Shown in pieces: positions 127-24,887 of a stretch of DNA of 25,858 bases. Numbering within the stretch: position 1 is the first letter of the stretch; each line of letters begins with the position of its first letter. This stretch comes from a virus: positions 1-25,858 of IMG/VR virus record IMGVR_UViG_3300028597_000066; one strand, written 5' to 3'. The position numbers were made by a program, and so were the translations under genes. Below the pieces are notes generated by a model that searched no databases, was not told the DNA's origin, and saw only the letters and a list, made by a program, of their open reading frames with translations.

Positions 127-621
127 ATGGCAGGCTGCGAAAGTTCTGCGTTCCTGGGTCGTGATACGACTCTCGAGTTCGCAATCGGTTGCCCGGATCA
201 GCTTCCGGAAGAAGGCGACTGGAAATTTATTGGCGCGCTTCGCTCCAATGGCATCAGCACTGAATGGGACGTCGTCGACAGTACCGCTGACGACTCGCAA
301 GGCAACATTCGCGAGCAAGAGGCAACCTATCGCACTATCACCATTTCGGCAGATGGCGTGGCTCGACGCACGGACAACGCGGTAGTGCACCAAACCGAGC
401 TCTACTTGCACTACATGAACCCGACCGCCACGGGAGGGCAACCGAAGGTGTGGATGCGCCGGACCGACCCGCGGGTGCAGCAAGTAGGCTATTTCCTGCT
501 GTCGACTTATGACCTGGAGGCGCCCTACGATGAGATCTCCACGTTCTCGATAGAAGCCACCAGTACGGCGAACTCCGTCATCCCTGGCGGCGTTTCCACC
601 ATCCCGACCCCAGTGGTGTAA
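127..621 (+). CDS. Major tail tube protein
   Basis: A 164-residue protein of the size and composition of siphovirus tail tube proteins, which stack as hexameric rings to form the DNA conduit of the tail. It is rich in beta-strand-type sequence (residues about 30-150) with a Ser/Thr-rich C-terminus. The start at 127 is supported by AGAGGG at 113-118. It lies upstream of a chaperone-like gene and the tape measure, the normal order, although a reverse-strand island now separates it from them. The assignment relies on size, composition and gene order as well as a general resemblance to tail tube proteins. An alternative is another minor tail structural protein. Confidence 0.7.
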   Translation: MAGCESSAFLGRDTTLEFAIGCPDQLPEEGDWKFIGALRSNGISTEWDVVDSTADDSQGNIREQEATYRTITISADGVARRTDNAVVHQTELYLHYMNPTATGGQPKVWMRRTDPRVQQVGYFLLSTYDLEAPYDEISTFSIEATSTANSVIPGGVSTIPTPVV

Positions 622-985: not shown

Positions 986-1009
986 GCCCCGCACTTGGCG
1001 GGGCTTTTT
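986..1009 (+). terminator. Rho-independent terminator after the tail tube operon
   Basis: GCCCCGC (986-992), a five-base loop, and GCGGGGC (998-1004) form a perfect 7-bp GC-rich stem followed by TTTTT (1005-1009). It sits 8 bases after the preceding stop codon and abuts the 3' end of the convergent HNH gene. On the minus strand no T-run follows, so it should act on + transcripts only. Confidence 0.85.
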
Positions 1010-1671
1010 CATTCCGGCTGCCATCGGGGCCCTTTGCTGGTGTTCTCGAAAGCCGTCAAAATTTGCAAATTCGCCAAAACATGTAGACCACTGACAAATT
1101 CGCCTTGCAATGGGAGAATATGGTCGACATGGTGCGGAATTCCGGTTGCCAGTTCCATGCCTTTTGCGAAGTCGTAGAGCATCTGGATCTCTAGGAAGTC
1201 CGCGGGCGTTAGCCATTTTGGCGTGCGTTGAAGCTTTGCGGCTCGACGTTTTGCTGCGGTAGCAGCGTTCTTTTGGGGGTTACGCTCGCGCCAAGCTTTA
1301 CCATTTGCGGCATGCCGCTCTTTGTTTTCGGTGTGCCAGCGTCGGCTCTTTTCCGCAACTTTATCCCTATTGGCGCGTTCCCACTGGTGGGCGGCTTCAG
1401 GGTTGGCTTTGTTCCACGCTAGATTTGCGGCTCGCTTCGGTCCAGGATTTGCGGCGTATTTTGCACGAGAAGCTGCGTTGCGGGCATCCCGATTAGCGTG
1501 GTGGTAAGCGTTGGTCCGGGCTTTAACCTGTTCTTTGTTTCGCTGATAGCTTTCTGCGCTTTTAGCCTTCTTGCAGGTACGGCATTGGGTGTAGAGACCA
1601 TCCCGAGCCTTCGCTGAAGGCGGGAATTCGTCGAAGGCTTTGCTCTGTTTACATACGGTACAAGTTTTCAT
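1009..1671 (-). CDS. HNH homing-type endonuclease (copy 1)
   Basis: A 220-residue protein with an N-terminal zinc-finger pattern (C4, C7, C30, C33), a basic middle of degenerate repeats rich in Arg, Asn, Lys and Ala (about 45-150), and a C-terminal HNH nuclease core. The core has HHVDHILPLQG from residue 180 (D183, H184), then N201 and N210 in the expected positions. HNH enzymes of this type cut DNA in a metal-dependent way and act as selfish homing elements in phages. The last 80 residues closely resemble copy 3 at 24111-24887, so the two are paralogous. It is the last gene of a three-gene minus-strand island. The start codon lies inside a strong hairpin, and no good ribosome binding site is exposed. 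Confidence 0.9.
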   Translation of the reverse strand: MKTCTVCKQSKAFDEFPPSAKARDGLYTQCRTCKKAKSAESYQRNKEQVKARTNAYHHANRDARNAASRAKYAANPGPKRAANLAWNKANPEAAHQWERANRDKVAEKSRRWHTENKERHAANGKAWRERNPQKNAATAAKRRAAKLQRTPKWLTPADFLEIQMLYDFAKGMELATGIPHHVDHILPLQGEFVSGLHVLANLQILTAFENTSKGPRWQPE

Positions 1672-1720: not shown

Positions 1721-2017
1721 TTACGTCAATTCCTCCCGCATGATTTTCACCTCTCGCGGAAACTCGAAAGCGAGCACCACTTCCTGACCCCGGCGCGACG
1801 GTCGCAGCTCCACGTTACCGCCGCCAAAGGTCATCGACTGGCCCGGGCGCAGCGCATCGACCACGCTGTGCGCACCTGACGAGCTGAGCTTCAGCCGCAC
1901 CGAGAACGCGCCAAACAGGCCCTTGGTCGCCTCGGTGAGCAGGCGCCAGGTTGTGCCGTTCGGTTCAGTGACGATCACCGATTCGCCGGCCTTGCGAGTG
2001 AGTACGAGTTTGCCCAT
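1721..2017 (-). CDS. CsrA/RsmA-like RNA-binding regulator with a large internal insertion
   Basis: A 98-residue protein. Residues 3-17 (KLVLTRKAGESVIVT) match the first strand of CsrA. Residues 68-98, ending in FPREVKIMREELT, match the rest of CsrA, including the conserved Arg in the REE motif (R94) used for RNA contact. Between them about 50 residues (18-67) are inserted where normal 60-residue CsrA has a short turn. CsrA proteins bind GGA-containing mRNA leaders and control translation, so a phage copy could act on host or phage messages. The ATG at 2017 is preceded by GAGGTG (2022-2027). It is the middle gene of a minus-strand island within the tail operon. The match is from memory of CsrA; whether the insertion leaves RNA binding intact is unknown. 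Confidence 0.75.
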   Translation of the reverse strand: MGKLVLTRKAGESVIVTEPNGTTWRLLTEATKGLFGAFSVRLKLSSSGAHSVVDALRPGQSMTFGGGNVELRPSRRGQEVVLAFEFPREVKIMREELT

Positions 2018-2025
2018 GGTGCACC

Positions 2026-2232
2026 TCAGATGCTCAACGGAGCGCATTGGTAAGTGATGACGGTTTTATTGCCGTGCCCTTCAGTTTGAACGGCTCCAGC
2101 TTGGGCTACCCTTCCCGCATTCTTACAGGCTTGCTCCGATGTAAAGCCGGGAGTGCTGGTTTGGGTTACGGCTACGGGGCTGGTGTTGAAAGGACCGAAA
2201 AGGTACGTCGTGAGAATCAGCGCGTAGATCAT
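2026..2232 (-). CDS. Small exported two-cysteine protein
   Basis: A 68-residue protein with a hydrophobic N-terminus (MIYALILTTYLFG) that looks like a signal peptide or membrane anchor, followed by a Thr/Ser-rich stretch and two cysteines in SEQACKNA and YQCAP. The two cysteines could form a disulfide in the periplasm. The start is firmly set by a consensus AGGAGGTG about 7 bases upstream (2239-2246). It is the first gene after the putative minus-strand promoter at 2260-2288 and ends 8 bases before the CsrA-like start. The protein at 15610-15855 has the same layout (SDQGCFQA, YQCITP). Function unknown; small exported phage proteins often change the host envelope, but that is not shown here. 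Confidence 0.75.
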   Translation of the reverse strand: MIYALILTTYLFGPFNTSPVAVTQTSTPGFTSEQACKNAGRVAQAGAVQTEGHGNKTVITYQCAPLSI

Positions 2233-2259
2233 GTGTGCACCTCCTGTTGATGTGGGCTC

Positions 2260-2288
2260 AGTGTCGCCCCTAGTGACACGTGTGTCAA
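2260..2288 (-). promoter_or_regulatory. Putative operator/promoter A for the reverse-strand island
   Basis: On the minus strand TTGACA (2288-2283) is followed after exactly 17 bases by GACACT (2265-2260), a weak -10. The perfect palindrome TGACACGTGTGTCA (2274-2287) overlaps the -35. About 40 bases around it resemble the region at 17720-17760, including a GTCAC-CTAGGGC-like spacer. It lies 28 bases upstream of the first island gene. The operator-like repeat is clearer than the -10. Confidence 0.45.
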
Positions 2289-2329: not shown

Positions 2330-2944
2330 ATGACCATACTCACCAGCATCGGCGAACAGCTCGTTACTGTGGGCGACCGCGCCGTCAAGTTCCGCCCGTC
2401 ACTGCTCGCCATGACGCGCATCGGCACGCCCCGCGAGATCGTGGACGTATTCGCCCAAGTCTGCGGCGCACCGTCGCACCCGGCGCTCGTGCGCGAGTGG
2501 CGCAAGCAGCAATTCGCCGCCGCCTGCTGCGTAATGATCGCATGCGCCGAGGATGACGACATCTCCTGGCTGATCGGCCACGTCAACGAGCGGTTCCGTT
2601 ACGTGCGAGGCGTGCTGCCGCTCGAGGACATCGTGGGCTTGGCCTCCGGGCTGCTCAAGCATGGCGTGGTGGGCGACGTGAAGCCCGACCGGCCCACCCG
2701 CGGCGACTACGTTCGCGAGTTCGACGCCCGGGGCATCGCTGCCACAGCCATGGCGCACCTGGGCCTGAGCGAAGCCGAAGCCTGGCAACTGACCATGACC
2801 AGCTACATCGGCGCCATGCGGGCCAAGTACCCGCCGAGCGAGAAGGACGCCAAGGCCGACCCGCGCAGCGACGCGGAAGTGTATGATTCAGCCAAAGCAT
2901 TCCTGGCCCGCGTGAAGGCCGCAAAACAATTGCAGGGAAAATAG
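2330..2944 (+). CDS. Probable tail assembly chaperone (DUF6246-like)
   Basis: A 204-residue protein immediately before the tape measure region, where siphoviruses encode chaperones that coat the tape measure during tail assembly. The N-terminal pattern IGEQ...FRPSLLAMTRIGTPREIV is what I recall for DUF6246-type proteins found in this position. The ATG at 2330 fits the family start; an upstream in-frame ATG at 2231 adds atypical residues, and neither has a good ribosome binding site. The gene ends in GGGAAAATAG, a slippery heptamer abutting the stop codon, with a stem-loop 9 bases on. That suggests a -1 frameshift like the lambda G/GT pair. The family call is moderate; the chaperone role comes from position. 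Confidence 0.7.
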   Translation: MTILTSIGEQLVTVGDRAVKFRPSLLAMTRIGTPREIVDVFAQVCGAPSHPALVREWRKQQFAAACCVMIACAEDDDISWLIGHVNERFRYVRGVLPLEDIVGLASGLLKHGVVGDVKPDRPTRGDYVREFDARGIAATAMAHLGLSEAEAWQLTMTSYIGAMRAKYPPSEKDAKADPRSDAEVYDSAKAFLARVKAAKQLQGK

Positions 2945-2976
2945 TGTATATTGAGCCATCGATCAGTGAGGCTCAA
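2935..2976 (+). promoter_or_regulatory. Candidate -1 frameshift signal: slippery heptamer plus stem-loop
   Basis: G GGA AAA (2935-2941) is in the correct phase of the chaperone-like frame, directly before its TAG (2942-2944). After a 9-base spacer, TTGAGCC (2951-2957) and GGCTCAA (2970-2976) form a perfect 7-bp stem with a 12-base loop. This matches the standard layout of a -1 programmed frameshift. The shifted frame runs 18 codons to a TAA at 2995-2997. The same stem-loop covers the GTGAGG ribosome binding site of HNH copy 2, so it may instead, or also, control that gene. Confidence 0.5.
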
Positions 2977-2977
2977 C

Positions 2978-3670
2978 ATGAACCCGAAATTTTGTAAACG
3001 ATGCGGGCAGTGGCGCACGGAAGAGGACTTCTACCGAAGCACTCGTAACAAAAGCGGGTTCGCCTCGCAATGCAAGAAATGCGAACGCGCTAAGCCAAGC
3101 GCACAACGGAAAACGTTACCGGTACTCTTCAACTCGACTGAAAAACAATGTAGCCGCTGCCGCGAAGTGAAACCACATAGTGATTTTTACCGCCGAAAGG
3201 GATCTCCGACGGGGTTGCATTGTTACTGCAAATCCTGCCAATTGGCGGCAACGGGCGCGTCTAGCAAAAAGCACATCGAGAGACGCCGAGCCCGTGAAAG
3301 GCAGAGGCTAGAAAGCTGCCCCGCAACACACATGAAATACCGCATCCTCGGCCTTGTCCGTAAAGCCATTGACCGACACGCGCTAGACTATCCCGTAAGC
3401 AGCGTGACCCGGGAGTTTTGGCTAGCGGTAGGGTATACTCGGCAAGAATTGGCAGAACACCTGGAAGCTCTTTTCCTCCCGGGGATGTCCTGGGAAAACC
3501 GTCGAGAGTGGCACATCGACCACATAATTCCAGTGTCCTATTTCAAACCAACGTCTTTTTCCGACCCTAAGTTTTTGGCATGCTGGGGCCTGAATAATCT
3601 CCGCCCAATGTGGGCTGCCGACAATCTGCGGAAGCGGGCTAGCCTCGAGTTTCTGCACCTCGTGGAGTAG
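2978..3670 (+). CDS. HNH endonuclease (copy 2)
   Basis: A 230-residue protein with two N-terminal zinc-finger-like cysteine blocks. The first has C6, C9, C32 and C35; the second repeats the pattern with CSRC and CKSC. The C-terminal HNH core has WHIDHIIPVSYF followed by a conserved LNNLRP and DNLRK. The ATG at 2978 has GTGAGG just upstream (2967-2972); an in-frame TTG at 2951 is less likely. The gene lies between the chaperone-like gene and the tape measure, which are normally adjacent, and looks less GC-rich than both. Its last codons supply the GGAG used by the tape measure. It belongs to a different HNH subgroup from copies 1 and 3. Probably a mobile intergenic endonuclease. Confidence 0.88.
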   Translation: MNPKFCKRCGQWRTEEDFYRSTRNKSGFASQCKKCERAKPSAQRKTLPVLFNSTEKQCSRCREVKPHSDFYRRKGSPTGLHCYCKSCQLAATGASSKKHIERRRARERQRLESCPATHMKYRILGLVRKAIDRHALDYPVSSVTREFWLAVGYTRQELAEHLEALFLPGMSWENRREWHIDHIIPVSYFKPTSFSDPKFLACWGLNNLRPMWAADNLRKRASLEFLHLVE

Positions 3671-3676
3671 AAAGCT

Positions 3677-6229
3677 GTGGAACAAGTCGGAGCTATCACA
3701 TACCTGGTTGACATGGACACCGCAGCCGTCACCAAGGGCGCGGACCGGGTCAATGCGGCGCTTGATTCCGTGGGCAAGGGGGCCGATCGGCTCGACGGCA
3801 CCATGGGCAAGGCCGAGCGCACGGTAACGCAGACCGGCAAGGCCAGCGCCAAGGCCGCTAATGACGTTGGCAAACTGGAGAAGGCCACGGAGAGCGCCAG
3901 TAACGCCGCTGGTGGGTTCACCGCCAAGTTGACCCCACTCGCTGCAGCCATCGGCGGCCTCGTCACAGCCCAGGCGATTCTCGACCTAGGCAAGATGGCC
4001 GAACAGTTCACTCTGCTGCAGGCGCGAATAACTCGGCTCTCTGCTGATGCCGAGACCGCTGCCGCGACTTACAACCGGCTCCTCACCGTTGCAGCAGCTA
4101 CAGGGCAGACAATGCCCGAGACGGTCAAGCTGTGGGAGACGTTGACCAGCAGCCTCAAGTCGCTCGGCGCGACGAATGATCAGGTAGTCACTCTCGTTAC
4201 CACGTTGCAGAAGATCGGCAAGATCGGCGGCAGTAGCGCGGAAGAAACATCCAATGCCCTCCGTCAGCTGGGCCAGTCGTTGGACCGTGGCACACTACAA
4301 GCCGAAGAATTCAACAGCATTGTCGAGCAGACTCCCGAGCTGATTCGCCAGTTGGCAGCAGCCTCGGGCCGCAGCATGGGCGAGTTCCGCCAGGCGATGC
4401 TCGACGGCAAGATCACATCACAAGAGCTGTTCGACCTGCTGATGAGCCGCACCCAGGAAGTCGACGCCGAGTTCAAAAAGCTGCCGCGCAGCGTGGCAGA
4501 TGCCGCGAACGCGATCATGGTGCAGATGGGCGCAGCCGCTTCAGCCATCGACCAGGCGACCAGCGCTTCGAAAGCCTTGGCATTCATCCTGGACCGCATT
4601 GCTGACGGTATCCAGGTAACGTTCAATCCGACGGACGTGCAGAAGTTCAACACGCTGTTGCGAGACCGCTCGCAGGCTGAGTCGGTGTACCAGGCGCAGT
4701 TGCAGAACGGGTCGAAGCGCTCCCAGGAAGCCGCAAAGAAGCGACTAGACAGCCTCAACGCCGAAATCAAGGCGATGCAGGACGCTCGTATCGCAGCCAT
4801 CAAGGCACAGAGCGGCGGGGGCGGGACGAGTGCGGGCAAGCCGGCCCCAACCACGACAGCGGACGGGCAGAAGGCCCTCGACCAGCTTGCCGAGCAGAAC
4901 CAGCAGCTGCGCGCCCAGGGGGTTGAGCGCGCCAAGATCATTGCCTTGCAGAAGCTCGGCGCCGGTGCGACGCAGCAGGAGAAAGACGCTGCCGTTGCCC
5001 TGGCGGTCGAAAACTACAACATGCAGGAAGCGGAGAAAGCCCGCACCAAGGCTTCGACCGACGGAGCAGCGCAGCGAAAGCGTGACGACGAGGCTGCAGC
5101 CGCTGCGATTCGCAAAGAGAACGAAGAGGCCAAGCGCGCGTACGAGGCCAACCGCAAAGTCATCGAGGGCTTGGCTCTGGAGCTGGGCAACGCAGCGCTG
5201 AAAGGCGAGGAACTGGCCGTTGCTCAGGCAAAAGCAAAGCTCAATAAGTTCGCCAGCCCCGAAGACGTGGCCGAGGTGGAACGCCTGACCCGTGCCATCG
5301 TGCAGCAACAGCAGGTTATCGCCAACAAGCAGCTCGCCGGTCAGGTGGACCCGTTCGTCGGTGCGCAGCAACAGCGCGACCAGCGACTTGCTGACCTGAA
5401 GACCTTGGAGCAGGCCGAGCTGCTGAGCGCCCAACGGGTCAACGAGCTGAAACTACAGGCCGAAACCACATATCAGGAGCAGGTACGCGCGCTACAGGAA
5501 GAAACATTCCGTCAGGCCTCCGTGGGCAACGACCTGTTGATCGGCACGCTGAACCAGTTGCAGCAGGCAGGCACGCAGGCATTTGTAGGCCTGATCACCG
5601 GTGCAAGCAATGGGCAGCAGGCGGTGCAAGCGTTGGCCAGTGCCCTGCTCAATGAGGCGGTGGGCGCCCTTGTGCAGATGGGTGTGCAGTACGTCAAGAA
5701 CATGATCATCGGCCAGACAGCGCAGACGGCGGCAACCACAGCCAGCGTGGCGGCAGCGGGTATTGTCGGTTCGGCTTGGGCGGGGCCGGCAGGCTTGGTG
5801 TCTCTCGCGTCGTTCGGGGCCAACGCCGTACCGGCCCAGGCCGCCATCGGCTCTACAATTGCTCTTGCTAAGGGCGCCGCTCTTGCAGGCGGTCGGCAGT
5901 ACGGCGGCCCCGTGGCCTCTGGAAACCTTTACCGTGTGAACGAAGGTGGCGCACCGGAGATCTTCAACGCCGCCGGCGGCAAACAATACATGATGCCCAA
6001 CAGCCGCGGCGAGGTGGTCAGCAACAAGGACGCGACGGCACAGAGTGGCGTTGCTGCCGCACCTGTGGTCAATGTCTATGAAGCAAACCCTGGGACGACG
6101 GTCAAGAGCCGATGGAGTCCAGAAGACGAAAACTGGATCATTGACGTGGTAAATGGGAATATCAACAGCAACGGCAAGATCGGCCAATCCGTCAACCGAG
6201 TTACCGGCACCCCGCGGAGAGGCGCATGA
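3677..6229 (+). CDS. Tail tape measure protein
   Basis: At 850 residues this is the second-longest gene in the window. The tape measure sets tail length and is threaded through the tube. Residues about 1-35 carry the usual VGAITYLVDMDTAAV start. About 100-260 form the conserved tape measure domain with LQKIGKIGGSSAEETSNALR. About 330-610 are long charged helices likely to be coiled coils. About 650-760 is a hydrophobic Ala/Gly-rich part, and the end has GGPVASGNLYRVNEGGAPEI, often seen in such proteins. It starts with GTG at 3677, with GGAG 9 bases upstream inside the HNH gene. An internal ATG at 3713 would cut off the conserved N-terminus. The stop overlaps the next gene (ATGA). Confidence 0.93.
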   Translation: MEQVGAITYLVDMDTAAVTKGADRVNAALDSVGKGADRLDGTMGKAERTVTQTGKASAKAANDVGKLEKATESASNAAGGFTAKLTPLAAAIGGLVTAQAILDLGKMAEQFTLLQARITRLSADAETAAATYNRLLTVAAATGQTMPETVKLWETLTSSLKSLGATNDQVVTLVTTLQKIGKIGGSSAEETSNALRQLGQSLDRGTLQAEEFNSIVEQTPELIRQLAAASGRSMGEFRQAMLDGKITSQELFDLLMSRTQEVDAEFKKLPRSVADAANAIMVQMGAAASAIDQATSASKALAFILDRIADGIQVTFNPTDVQKFNTLLRDRSQAESVYQAQLQNGSKRSQEAAKKRLDSLNAEIKAMQDARIAAIKAQSGGGGTSAGKPAPTTTADGQKALDQLAEQNQQLRAQGVERAKIIALQKLGAGATQQEKDAAVALAVENYNMQEAEKARTKASTDGAAQRKRDDEAAAAAIRKENEEAKRAYEANRKVIEGLALELGNAALKGEELAVAQAKAKLNKFASPEDVAEVERLTRAIVQQQQVIANKQLAGQVDPFVGAQQQRDQRLADLKTLEQAELLSAQRVNELKLQAETTYQEQVRALQEETFRQASVGNDLLIGTLNQLQQAGTQAFVGLITGASNGQQAVQALASALLNEAVGALVQMGVQYVKNMIIGQTAQTAATTASVAAAGIVGSAWAGPAGLVSLASFGANAVPAQAAIGSTIALAKGAALAGGRQYGGPVASGNLYRVNEGGAPEIFNAAGGKQYMMPNSRGEVVSNKDATAQSGVAAAPVVNVYEANPGTTVKSRWSPEDENWIIDVVNGNINSNGKIGQSVNRVTGTPRRGA

Positions 6230-15605: not shown

Positions 15606-15618
15606 CTGCTCAGAATAG
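15367..15618 (+). CDS. Rz1: Rz1-like outer-membrane spanin lipoprotein, nested in Rz
   Basis: An 83-residue protein in the +1 frame of Rz. A basic start and hydrophobic core lead to a lipobox ISAC with the lipidated Cys at residue 16, so the mature protein is about 68 residues. The ATG at 15367 has AAGAGGA about 11 bases upstream. It begins inside Rz and ends 13 bases after it, so it is embedded with a short overhang. The mature part has several Pro and three further Cys. Its last 9 bases overlap the 3' end of the convergent minus-strand gene. Confidence 0.82.
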   Translation: MRLPLLLACVLTISACSGRSPTPSSDSMPRAGQPPEGPEVPAMCSPTCAAGLEKLQQCWLSMLTESAPAAESAKRPGQDSCSE

Positions 15619-15855
15619 CGCACGCGGCGAATGGTCTTGAGGCCTCGAGCCGCTCAGTTGTTCGAAGTGCTGAGGGGTAATGCATTGGTACCTGGCGGGC
15701 TCGCCCTCTGAACGGTTGTAGTCATTGGCCATCTCCGCCGCCTGAAAGCAGCCTTGGTCGCTCGTGACCTCCAGGGTCGAGGTGGCGTCGATGTAGCTGC
15801 AGATGCGTTCGCCATCAGCGGTGCAGAGGGCCATGGCCAGGACTAGGGTAAGCAT
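15610..15855 (-). CDS. Small exported two-cysteine protein, second copy of the type
   Basis: An 81-residue protein with a short hydrophobic N-terminus (MLTLVLAMALC) and the pattern SDQGCFQAAEMAN then YQCITP, parallel to SEQACKNAGRVAQ and YQCAP in the protein at 2026-2232. The ATG at 15855 has GGAG at a good distance; longer in-frame starts upstream lack one and overlap a different gene. It is the last gene of the tiny-gene cassette and overlaps the end of Rz1 head-on. Probably periplasmic or membrane-tethered. Function unknown. Confidence 0.72.
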   Translation of the reverse strand: MLTLVLAMALCTADGERICSYIDATSTLEVTSDQGCFQAAEMANDYNRSEGEPARYQCITPQHFEQLSGSRPQDHSPRALF

Positions 15856-15953
15856 TTTGTGGTCTCCAGAAAAATGATCACGCTGTACACGCTGATGCCG
15901 TAGAACAGCAGCGACACGGTGCAAAGGTAGCAAGCGACGCGCAGGGTGCTCAT
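15843..15953 (-). CDS. 36-residue membrane peptide
   Basis: An ATG at 15953 opens a 36-codon frame with one hydrophobic stretch (residues about 5-28, including VSLLFYGISVYSVIIFL). TGAGGG lies about 9 bases upstream. It starts in an ATGA overlap with the stop of the preceding gene and ends 13 bases inside the following one, a spacing shared by its neighbours, which is the main reason to believe it. A single-pass membrane peptide; function unknown. Confidence 0.6.
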   Translation of the reverse strand: MSTLRVACYLCTVSLLFYGISVYSVIIFLETTKCLP

Positions 15954-17724: not shown

Positions 17725-17753
17725 AGTATTGCCCTAGGTGACGTCCGTGTCAA
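17725..17753 (-). promoter_or_regulatory. Putative promoter/operator B for the tiny-gene cassette
   Basis: Minus-strand TTGACA (17753-17748), a 17-base spacer and AATACT (17730-17725) make a good sigma70-type promoter. TGAC-N6-GTCA (17739-17752) overlaps the -35 in the same place as the perfect palindrome of site A. It starts 5 bases after the polymerase stop codon and lies about 34 bases upstream of the first cassette gene. Confidence 0.55.
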
Positions 17754-23780: not shown

Positions 23781-24035
23781 TCAGTGAGCTACGTGGAATG
23801 GGTTAGCGCGACGGATGCCGTCAGCAAGGCCGAGATGGGCTTTGTTGAAACGGATAGATTGCGATGCGCAGTATGTGACGCGGGCTGCCTTGCGCTCCCG
23901 CTTGGCCGCAGCCGCTTCAATGCGCGCCGCCTGTACCGGGTCGGCGGGGTTGTGCCAGTGGCGGGCATCGGTGGTGCGGTGATAGGTCTCGACTTTGTAG
24001 CTGCCATCGAGCCATTTAACGATTCGGTTGAGCAT
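23781..24035 (-). CDS. 84-residue uncharacterised early protein
   Basis: Begins MLNRIVKWLDGSYKVETYHR, then a basic helix (ARIEAAAAKRERKAARVTYC) and a tail with NKAHLGLADGIRRANPFHV. GGAG lies about 10 bases before the ATG at 24035. It is the first gene after promoter C and lies 10 bases before the next gene. No membrane segment or known motif. Being first in the early block suggests an early host-interaction or regulatory role; this is speculative. Confidence 0.7.
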   Translation of the reverse strand: MLNRIVKWLDGSYKVETYHRTTDARHWHNPADPVQAARIEAAAAKRERKAARVTYCASQSIRFNKAHLGLADGIRRANPFHVAH

Positions 24036-24110: not shown

Positions 24111-24887
24111 ATGGCGGAGCTGGAGAAAAAGTGCAGTTGCTGCCAGGTGCTGAAGCCCTTGGGTGATTTTCACAACGCCCGAGGTCAGCGAGACGGCAAA
24201 GCCTTCTACTGTAAAGCGTGCGCCAAGCAGAAATCTGCAGACAGGTACCTGAAAAATCGAGAATCGATTCTGGCCCGGAACAAAACGTGGGATCTGGAGA
24301 ACCCTGAAAAGCGTAGAGCTATTTCGCGCCGGGGCGAAGCCAAAAACCCGGAGAAGCGTCGTGCTCAAGCAAAAGCGCTCCGGGAGGCTAATCCGGACCG
24401 GCAAAAACGCTACGAGCGTACCTGGGCAGAGAAACATCCCGGCGCCCGCGCAGCAGTGTCGAGGGCATGGCGGCTGCGCAATAAGGCGAAGGCCGCTGCA
24501 GCGGACAAGGCCCGGCGCGAAGGGAACATTGAGCGCTACCTAGAACGGGAACGCGCATACGACCGGGCAAATCGCGAATATCGCAAGCTTAAAAACAAAC
24601 GGTGGCAGCAAGCTAACCCACATAAGGTTGCAGCGCATGCGGCCAAACGACGAGCCGTAATCTCCGAGCGAACGCCGAAGTGGCTCACCGAACAAGATTT
24701 TGACGCCATCGACTGGTTTTACGCTTCTGCGAAAATGGCAGAGGCCACAACCGGCATACCCCATCAGGTAGACCACGTTATCCCGTTGCAGGGAAAGCGG
24801 GTGAGCGGGCTACATGTACCGAATAACTTGCAGGTTATTCCTGCTTCCGAAAACCTCAAGAAATCCAATCACTGGAGCGTGGAATGA
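24111..24887 (+). CDS. HNH homing-type endonuclease (copy 3)
   Basis: A 258-residue paralogue of copy 1. It has an N-terminal CSCC/CKAC zinc-finger-like pattern, a long basic middle with repeats of the NPEKRRA type, and a C-terminal HNH core with HQVDHVIPLQGKRVSGLHVP (D221, H222, N239). The ATG at 24111 has GGAG at 24102-24105. The stop overlaps the helicase ATG (ATGA), and GGAG near its 3' end serves the helicase. A + promoter lies upstream. The longer middle region than copy 1 suggests repeat gain. It is inserted between the divergent promoters and the helicase, a conserved type of replication gene. Confidence 0.9.
   Translation: MAELEKKCSCCQVLKPLGDFHNARGQRDGKAFYCKACAKQKSADRYLKNRESILARNKTWDLENPEKRRAISRRGEAKNPEKRRAQAKALREANPDRQKRYERTWAEKHPGARAAVSRAWRLRNKAKAAAADKARREGNIERYLERERAYDRANREYRKLKNKRWQQANPHKVAAHAAKRRAVISERTPKWLTEQDFDAIDWFYASAKMAEATTGIPHQVDHVIPLQGKRVSGLHVPNNLQVIPASENLKKSNHWSVE

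Follow-up and report, generated by a model that had tools for sequence, protein, structure and literature searches.

The minus-strand open reading frame at 2017-1721 of the window (the whole 25,858-nt stretch of viral DNA that was analyzed) encodes a 98-residue protein related to the translational regulator CsrA. With a probability of about 0.72, this protein is a single-chain CsrA "pseudo-dimer", in which two cores are joined head to tail and share one RNA site, and it likely serves as a GGA competitor or repressor. The usual CsrA is a chain of ~60 residues with one core and a C-terminal helix, and it forms a strand-swapped homodimer with two RNA sites. The window protein does not have this chain plan: it is 98 residues long, ends two residues after its REE sequence with no C-terminal helix, and has relatives that hold two cores; from its anatomy, a two-site homodimer is not predicted. 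The extra stretch most likely consists of strands 3 and 4 of a first CsrA copy followed by strand 2 of a second (Table 1).

Table 1. Features of the window that bear on the CsrA-like gene; the division into copies and the RNA surface are predicted.
Feature	Position	Strand	Basis
Putative single-chain tandem CsrA-like gene, 98 aa + stop	1721..2017	-	Conserved in L003; by synteny in phage vsMR
Predicted copy 1, residues 1-46, strands 1-4 (KLVLTRK / GESVIVT / TTWRLLTEAT / FSVRLKLSS)	1880..2017	-	HMM match of 4-17 to CsrA 2-15; model strands; clear in L208, L229
Predicted junction, residues 47-58	1844..1879	-	No model strand of ≥3 residues; copy 1 of relatives runs straight into copy 2 strand 2
Predicted copy 2, residues 59-97, strands 2-5	1727..1843	-	HMM match of 76-97 to CsrA 26-47; PHROG 9500 match of 57-97 to 7-47; RPGQSMTFG
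Copy 1 strand 1, KLVLTRK, half of the retained predicted RNA surface	1991..2011	-	L4, L6, R8 invariant; role of L4/L6 from PMC3791407, PMC7652899
Copy 2 strand 5, PREVKIMREEL, other half of the retained predicted RNA surface	1727..1759	-	P87, R94, E96, L97 invariant; V90, I92 nearly so
Tail tube protein (flank)	127..621	+	PF06199; also in MR14, L003, vsMR
DUF6246 gene, tail-assembly chaperone position (flank)	2333..2944	+	PF19759; also in MR14, L003, L007, vsMR
HNH-endonuclease-like downstream neighbor	1009..1671	-	Sequence by eye; no Pfam hit
Small upstream ORF, 68 aa, signal-peptide-like start, two cysteines	2026..2232	-	An unrelated ORF takes its place in L003
Conserved leader: TTGACA overlapping inverted repeat TGACACNNGTGTCA (2274-2287), and AACAGGAGGTGCA Shine-Dalgarno	2233..2288	-	Few changes relative to L003

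The open reading frame for this CsrA-related protein is real. It begins with ATG at 2017, preceded by the Shine-Dalgarno sequence GAGGTG, and terminates at 1721-1723. An alternative in-frame ATG lies at 2047; only the start at 2017 has GAGGTG and is conserved in a second contig, L003 (IMGVR_UViG_3300028596_000238). The gene is kept: the L003 copy shares 92% amino acid identity with the window protein, and of the codons that differ, 11 changed synonymously and 8 non-synonymously. All eight non-synonymous changes fall in residues 13-37 and none in residues 38-98, a pattern that may in part be due to recombination with a boundary close to codon 37. DNA identity to L003 breaks at window positions 1906-1907 (codon 37/38), being ~80% before and 98% after, and this break is likely a recombination point inside the gene.

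Both ends of the protein are CsrA-like, as a sequence-only reading of this DNA had held. The Pfam CsrA model (PF02599) scores the window protein at 30 bits against a cut-off of 27, and the match is split into two stretches, residues 4-17 and 68/76-97. A CsrA HMM of our own aligns residues 4-17 with CsrA 2-15 and residues 76-97 with CsrA 26-47, and for either end none of 1000 shuffles was as good. The score against the csrA equivalog TIGR00202 (NCBIfam) is 24.5 bits, below its cut-off of 70.1. The critical arginine is kept as R94 in the C-terminal MREELT, and the equivalents of the RNA-contact residues L4 and R44 are found among L4/L6/R8 and V90/I92/R94/E96, which are conserved in the relatives. 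The proposed kinship with CsrA is thus borne out by the Pfam and HMM scores and by the homologues, whose ends also align with CsrA.

A second core was suggested by the following results. Unguided, MAFFT placed CsrA strand 2 at RPGQSMTFG (residues 57-65) and not at GESVIVT; PHROG 9500 matches residues 57-97 with its positions 7-47, which are of equal length with no net gap; and RPGQSMTFG, held on the fixed CsrA diagonal, fits the profile better than ~99.99% of shuffles (p ~1e-4). The middle of the window protein is diverged. Taken alone, it has no significant CsrA likeness, and 55 of 1000 shuffles of residues 18-67 reach the real family score (p ~0.05). Self-alignment of the two halves of the protein yields a weak, non-significant internal repeat.

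The relatives were sought by degenerate IMG/VR scans for MxxL[VI]LTR[KR]xGE and for the C-terminal P..[DE][VI].[IV].RTEL, which returned 28 more long proteins (85-104 residues). A further member, from phage vsMR of Pseudomonas alcaligenes, was found by tblastn, so that the family comprises 31 members: 29 further phage proteins, the window protein, and the L003 copy. In most of these, one chain spans CsrA positions ~8-28 or more two times, with copy 1 supplying strands 1-4 and copy 2 supplying strands 2-5. In L208, which reaches a Pfam CsrA score of 57 bits, residues 4-36 match CsrA 2-35 (iE 1e-8) and residues 44-84 match CsrA 8-48 (3e-11). The corresponding matches are 1-24 with CsrA 1-24 and 49-87 with CsrA 9-47 in the vsMR protein, and about 4-33 with CsrA 2-28 and 49-91 with CsrA 7-49 in most other members. 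In profile-profile comparison, the family middle stripped of its terminal motifs (L208 residues 13-43) matches CsrA 11-41 (P 8e-6), and the C-terminal part matches CsrA 7-49 (4e-14). Compared with the family profile, the solved RsmE (2jpp) yields two matches, one of chain residues 1-31 and one of 11-49.

The double coverage of CsrA positions 8-28 or more is clear in L208, vsMR, L198, L229, and others, whereas in the window protein it is read from register, model, and homology only. The full-length identity of the window protein is 37% with L208 and 36% with L198, and an HMM built without it and L003 matches its residues 1-97 to positions 1-91 end to end (40 bits). On the basis of these identities, the end-to-end match, and the place and orientation shared with vsMR, the window protein is placed in the tandem family. 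The existence of a phage family of single-chain tandem CsrAs is held with high confidence and the membership of the window gene with good confidence.

Eight family columns are invariant, namely M1, L4, L6, and R8 in copy 1 strand 1 and P87, R94, E96, and L97 in copy 2 strand 5, although this terminal conservation is partly forced by the motifs used to find the members. Apart from M1, all of these columns lie in strand 1 or strand 5. The C-terminal motif left the N-termini of its finds unconstrained, as the N-terminal motif did the C-termini of its own, and neither motif was involved in finding the window protein, L003, and vsMR. The second strand 5 and strand 1 are missing in the family or lack the arginine, as judged from alignments read by eye.

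The family gene occupies different positions in different phages. The window, L003, and vsMR have it in the tail region; L198, L229, and most others have it in the early region, next to small genes that also occur in the window phage. The family profile found no member in bacterial genomes drawn from the class and phylum (369 and 398, overlapping; E 1e-12/1e-10); known members score 1e-18 or better in the control, which is a weak one since they are part of the profile. A tblastn search with the window protein against phages and plasmids gave no match, and neither did a search of 369 genomes. Gapped DNA patterns demanding REE retrieved nothing beyond the known pair, chance matches, and ordinary CsrAs.

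For structure prediction, the AlphaFold2 input consisted of L003 and of ordinary CsrA rows that covered only residues 1-8 and 57-98, with none over residues 9-56. The resulting model is of moderate confidence (mean pLDDT 68.9, two of the five models above 60) and places strands at residues 2-9, 13-17, 23-32, 38-46, 61-64, 67-73, 79-86, and 92-96. This order corresponds to predicted strands 1-4 followed by 2-5 and supports the tandem reading but does not prove it. The pLDDT is ~78 for residues 10-30, where no CsrA row informed the model. With only the two close sequences and no CsrA rows, the pLDDT was 43 and the prediction unusable.

In a Foldseek search of BFVD, the best match to the model is a 94-residue viral protein (44% identity, TM 0.74-0.77), and a 114-residue "Carbon storage regulator" also aligns over 95 columns. 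The predicted folds of A0A345BNA3, A0A6J5RUQ1, A0A2H4PHU8, and other BFVD proteins of 81-114 residues match the model over most of its length. These proteins are unnamed or labeled only "carbon storage regulator", and the comparison is by predicted fold alone. Foldseek gave no match below E 0.001 in the PDB. The top Foldseek/VIA rows there were OB-fold single-stranded DNA-binding proteins and other beta proteins, which were taken as noise (TM below 0.4, Z up to 7.2). CsrA chains are absent among the Foldseek/VIA PDB matches listed, which excludes nothing.

The sequence-only reading had taken the protein for a CsrA split by a 50-residue insertion after the first strand, at a place other than that of the RsmN helix. 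However, residues 1-17 cover both strand 1 (LVLTRK) and strand 2 (GESVIVT), such that the additional residues begin only past strand 2 and separate it from strand 3, at the same position as the helix of RsmN (PMC3791407). With its location so corrected, a true CsrA chain with 50 non-CsrA residues between strands 2 and 3, forming a homodimer with two RNA sites as an extreme RsmN-like protein, is the strongest competitor of the tandem reading but still unlikely. In its favor, CsrA scores in the window protein are confined to the two ends, the extra stretch stands at the RsmN helix position, and the C-terminal helix is absent as it is in RsmN. In contrast, the same stretch corresponds to CsrA strands 2-4 in the relatives, the model predicts strands there instead of a helix, and RPGQSMTFG falls on the CsrA diagonal. 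A split by insertion is therefore not the best reading, as in the homologues the middle itself is CsrA.

RsmN/RsmF of Pseudomonas aeruginosa resembles the window protein in having strands 2 and 3 separated by extra residues, no helix at the C-terminus, a conserved arginine in strand 5, and the pair formed by R8 and the glutamate two residues after that arginine. RsmN is a two-site dimer whose 16 extra residues are helical (PMC3791407). In the window protein, the ~50 extra residues are predicted strands with no helix, and the preferred reading assigns them to a second CsrA core. RsmN-like phage proteins of ~66 residues with a helical-looking insert (MSYLVLTRKQGEALVIRAAPDADEQALLEQLRTTGIEV...) were also encountered in L210 and L216 (minus strand) and at 4365 of L199 (plus strand).

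In CsrA, each of the two RNA surfaces pairs strand 1 of one monomer with strand 5 of the opposing one (PMC7652899). GGA is held in RsmN by L4/L6, the backbone of strand 5, and the arginine of that strand (PMC3791407). The CsrA dimer bridges two GGA sites, and full repression of glgC needs both pockets (PMC7652899).

The sequences establish homology to CsrA, doubled CsrA segments in the relatives, a conserved gene position, and the pattern of conservation; for the window protein, we infer a monomer that binds RNA at one site and acts during infection. Two CsrA cores would be fused head to tail, with copy 1 giving strands 1-4 and copy 2 strands 2-5; the internal elements at the junction (copy 1 strand 5 and C-terminal helix, copy 2 strand 1) are lost or degenerate. 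Such a fusion would retain exactly one strand 1-strand 5 pair, from copy 1 strand 1 and copy 2 strand 5, and discard the second surface. One intact site per chain is proposed because the invariant columns belong to this pair, while the other pair is missing or lacks the arginine; confidence in a one-site mechanism is moderate. The fused chain is expected to fold as a monomer and to bind one GGA hairpin. Since the CsrA dimer bridges two GGA sites and requires both pockets to repress glgC fully, a one-site chain would compete for GGA without linking a pair of sites on the same RNA. As a single polypeptide, it is also expected not to swap strands with host RsmA. With one predicted site per chain and no free subunit, the anatomy as read from the sequence is unlike that of normal CsrA.

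In the most likely use, the gene would have a promoter of its own that reads against the tail genes, and its product would compete with host RsmA-type proteins for GGA sites; alternatively, it may repress single-site messages during infection. The wider proposal, that phages made a monomeric single-site CsrA that binds GGA without bridging, is insulated from RsmA strand exchange, and acts as a natural Csr/Rsm antagonist, is tentative and stands slightly below even odds. The earlier suggestion that a phage copy rewires host Rsm control or protects phage messages is plausible. ACARGGA and strong GGA sites show no enrichment within the window. Autoregulation at the gene's own start was considered and rejected: CAGGA precedes the L003 gene but CTGAGG stands in the window, and the region folds no better than shuffles.

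A tandem CsrA that does not bind RNA but acts by protein contact, e.g., as a decoy partner or as a scaffold blocking host RsmA, would be in keeping with the loss of one site and with a fast-evolving middle in which 8 non-synonymous changes lie within residues 13-37. This is improbable, as the RNA-contact equivalents L4, V90, I92, and R94 and the R8-E96 pair are the most conserved parts of the protein. Low similarity to host CsrA and a mosaic neighborhood with HNH-like genes might point to a decaying, non-functional csrA fragment from the host, but this is very hard to credit given that 31 phage records keep the frame open at a similar length, that every change in residues 38-98 is synonymous, that the Shine-Dalgarno sequence and leader are conserved, and that vsMR has the gene in the same position.

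With CsrA/RsmA proteins (PF02599; E. coli CsrA, Pseudomonas RsmA/RsmE), the window protein shares strand 1 LxLTR, strand 5 PxEVxIxRxE, the L4 and R44 equivalents, and a beta-strand core; it differs in that its 98-residue chain appears to hold two cores with no C-terminal helix and a single predicted RNA surface where CsrA has two. Phage- and plasmid-borne csrA genes of the ordinary kind have been described, including RsmM-type proteins of P. aeruginosa phages and RsmQ of a Pseudomonas plasmid (PMC7366521, PMC9928087). These likewise reside on Pseudomonas mobile elements, but they are single domains matched by tblastn in one piece. E. coli CsrA matches 98 phage records by tblastn; proteins of the window type are not among the matches listed, and tblastn with the window protein finds none of those records. 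No mention of a single-chain or tandem CsrA was found in the open-access full texts searched, and the tandem form has apparently gone unnoticed so far, unlike ordinary phage-borne CsrA. Short phage CsrAs of ~60 residues (MSRLVLTRKxGE...NQVRISFEAD) were seen in L204, L205, L207, L212, L213, and L217; they seemingly lack the usual C-terminal helix, and A-D replaces A-P.

If true, a natural one-site single-chain CsrA would offer a direct test of the role of bridging, show a route from strand-swapped dimer to monomer, and suggest that phages possess a means of acting on a global regulator of the host. The family alignment can serve as a search profile for proteins that are elsewhere annotated as hypothetical or simply as "carbon storage regulator".

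As a virus record, the window measures 25.9 kb; it is related to Pseudomonas phage MR14 (identity of shared proteins in matched pieces, 38-86%) and more distantly to vsMR. The CsrA-like gene runs antisense to the tail operon: on one side lie the tail tube gene and its small neighbor, on the other the DUF6246 gene and then the tape measure gene. The vsMR copy is likewise antisense between the tail-tube and tail-chaperone genes. At the same place, MR14 has only ~115 bp, and it has no CsrA match at all. L003 carries the gene in the same place with a different flanking small ORF and, in place of window 1009..1671, a different HNH-like gene (~42% identical). Three HNH-endonuclease-like genes without Pfam hits occur in the window, at 1009-1671 (-), 2951-3670 (+), and 24114-24887 (+); their GC is 0.53-0.56 compared with 0.61 for the phage, and two are near the csrA cassette. 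In the more distant phage L007, the same antisense spot between tail tube and DUF6246 holds an unrelated 212-residue gene (5354-5992, -), for which reason the spot seems to be an insertion site for accessory genes.

The small upstream ORF is probably in the same transcript as the CsrA-like gene, and an ORF at 15610-15876 (-) looks similar to it. The leader, TTGACAC(A/G)CGTGTCACTAGGGGCGACACT...AACAGGAGGTGCA, is nearly identical in the window and L003. With up to 2 mismatches, the inverted repeat TGACACNNGTGTCA has 13 sites in MR14 compared with 2.4 expected, and it looks like a phage-wide operator. Its sites in MR14 (L151) include 7051, 22622, 23954, and 31336, several being intergenic, and in the csrA cassette it overlaps the -35-like TTGACA. 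In both phages, a weak copy of the repeat is retained immediately beyond the DNA polymerase gene (window 17739-17752, MR14 23954-23967).
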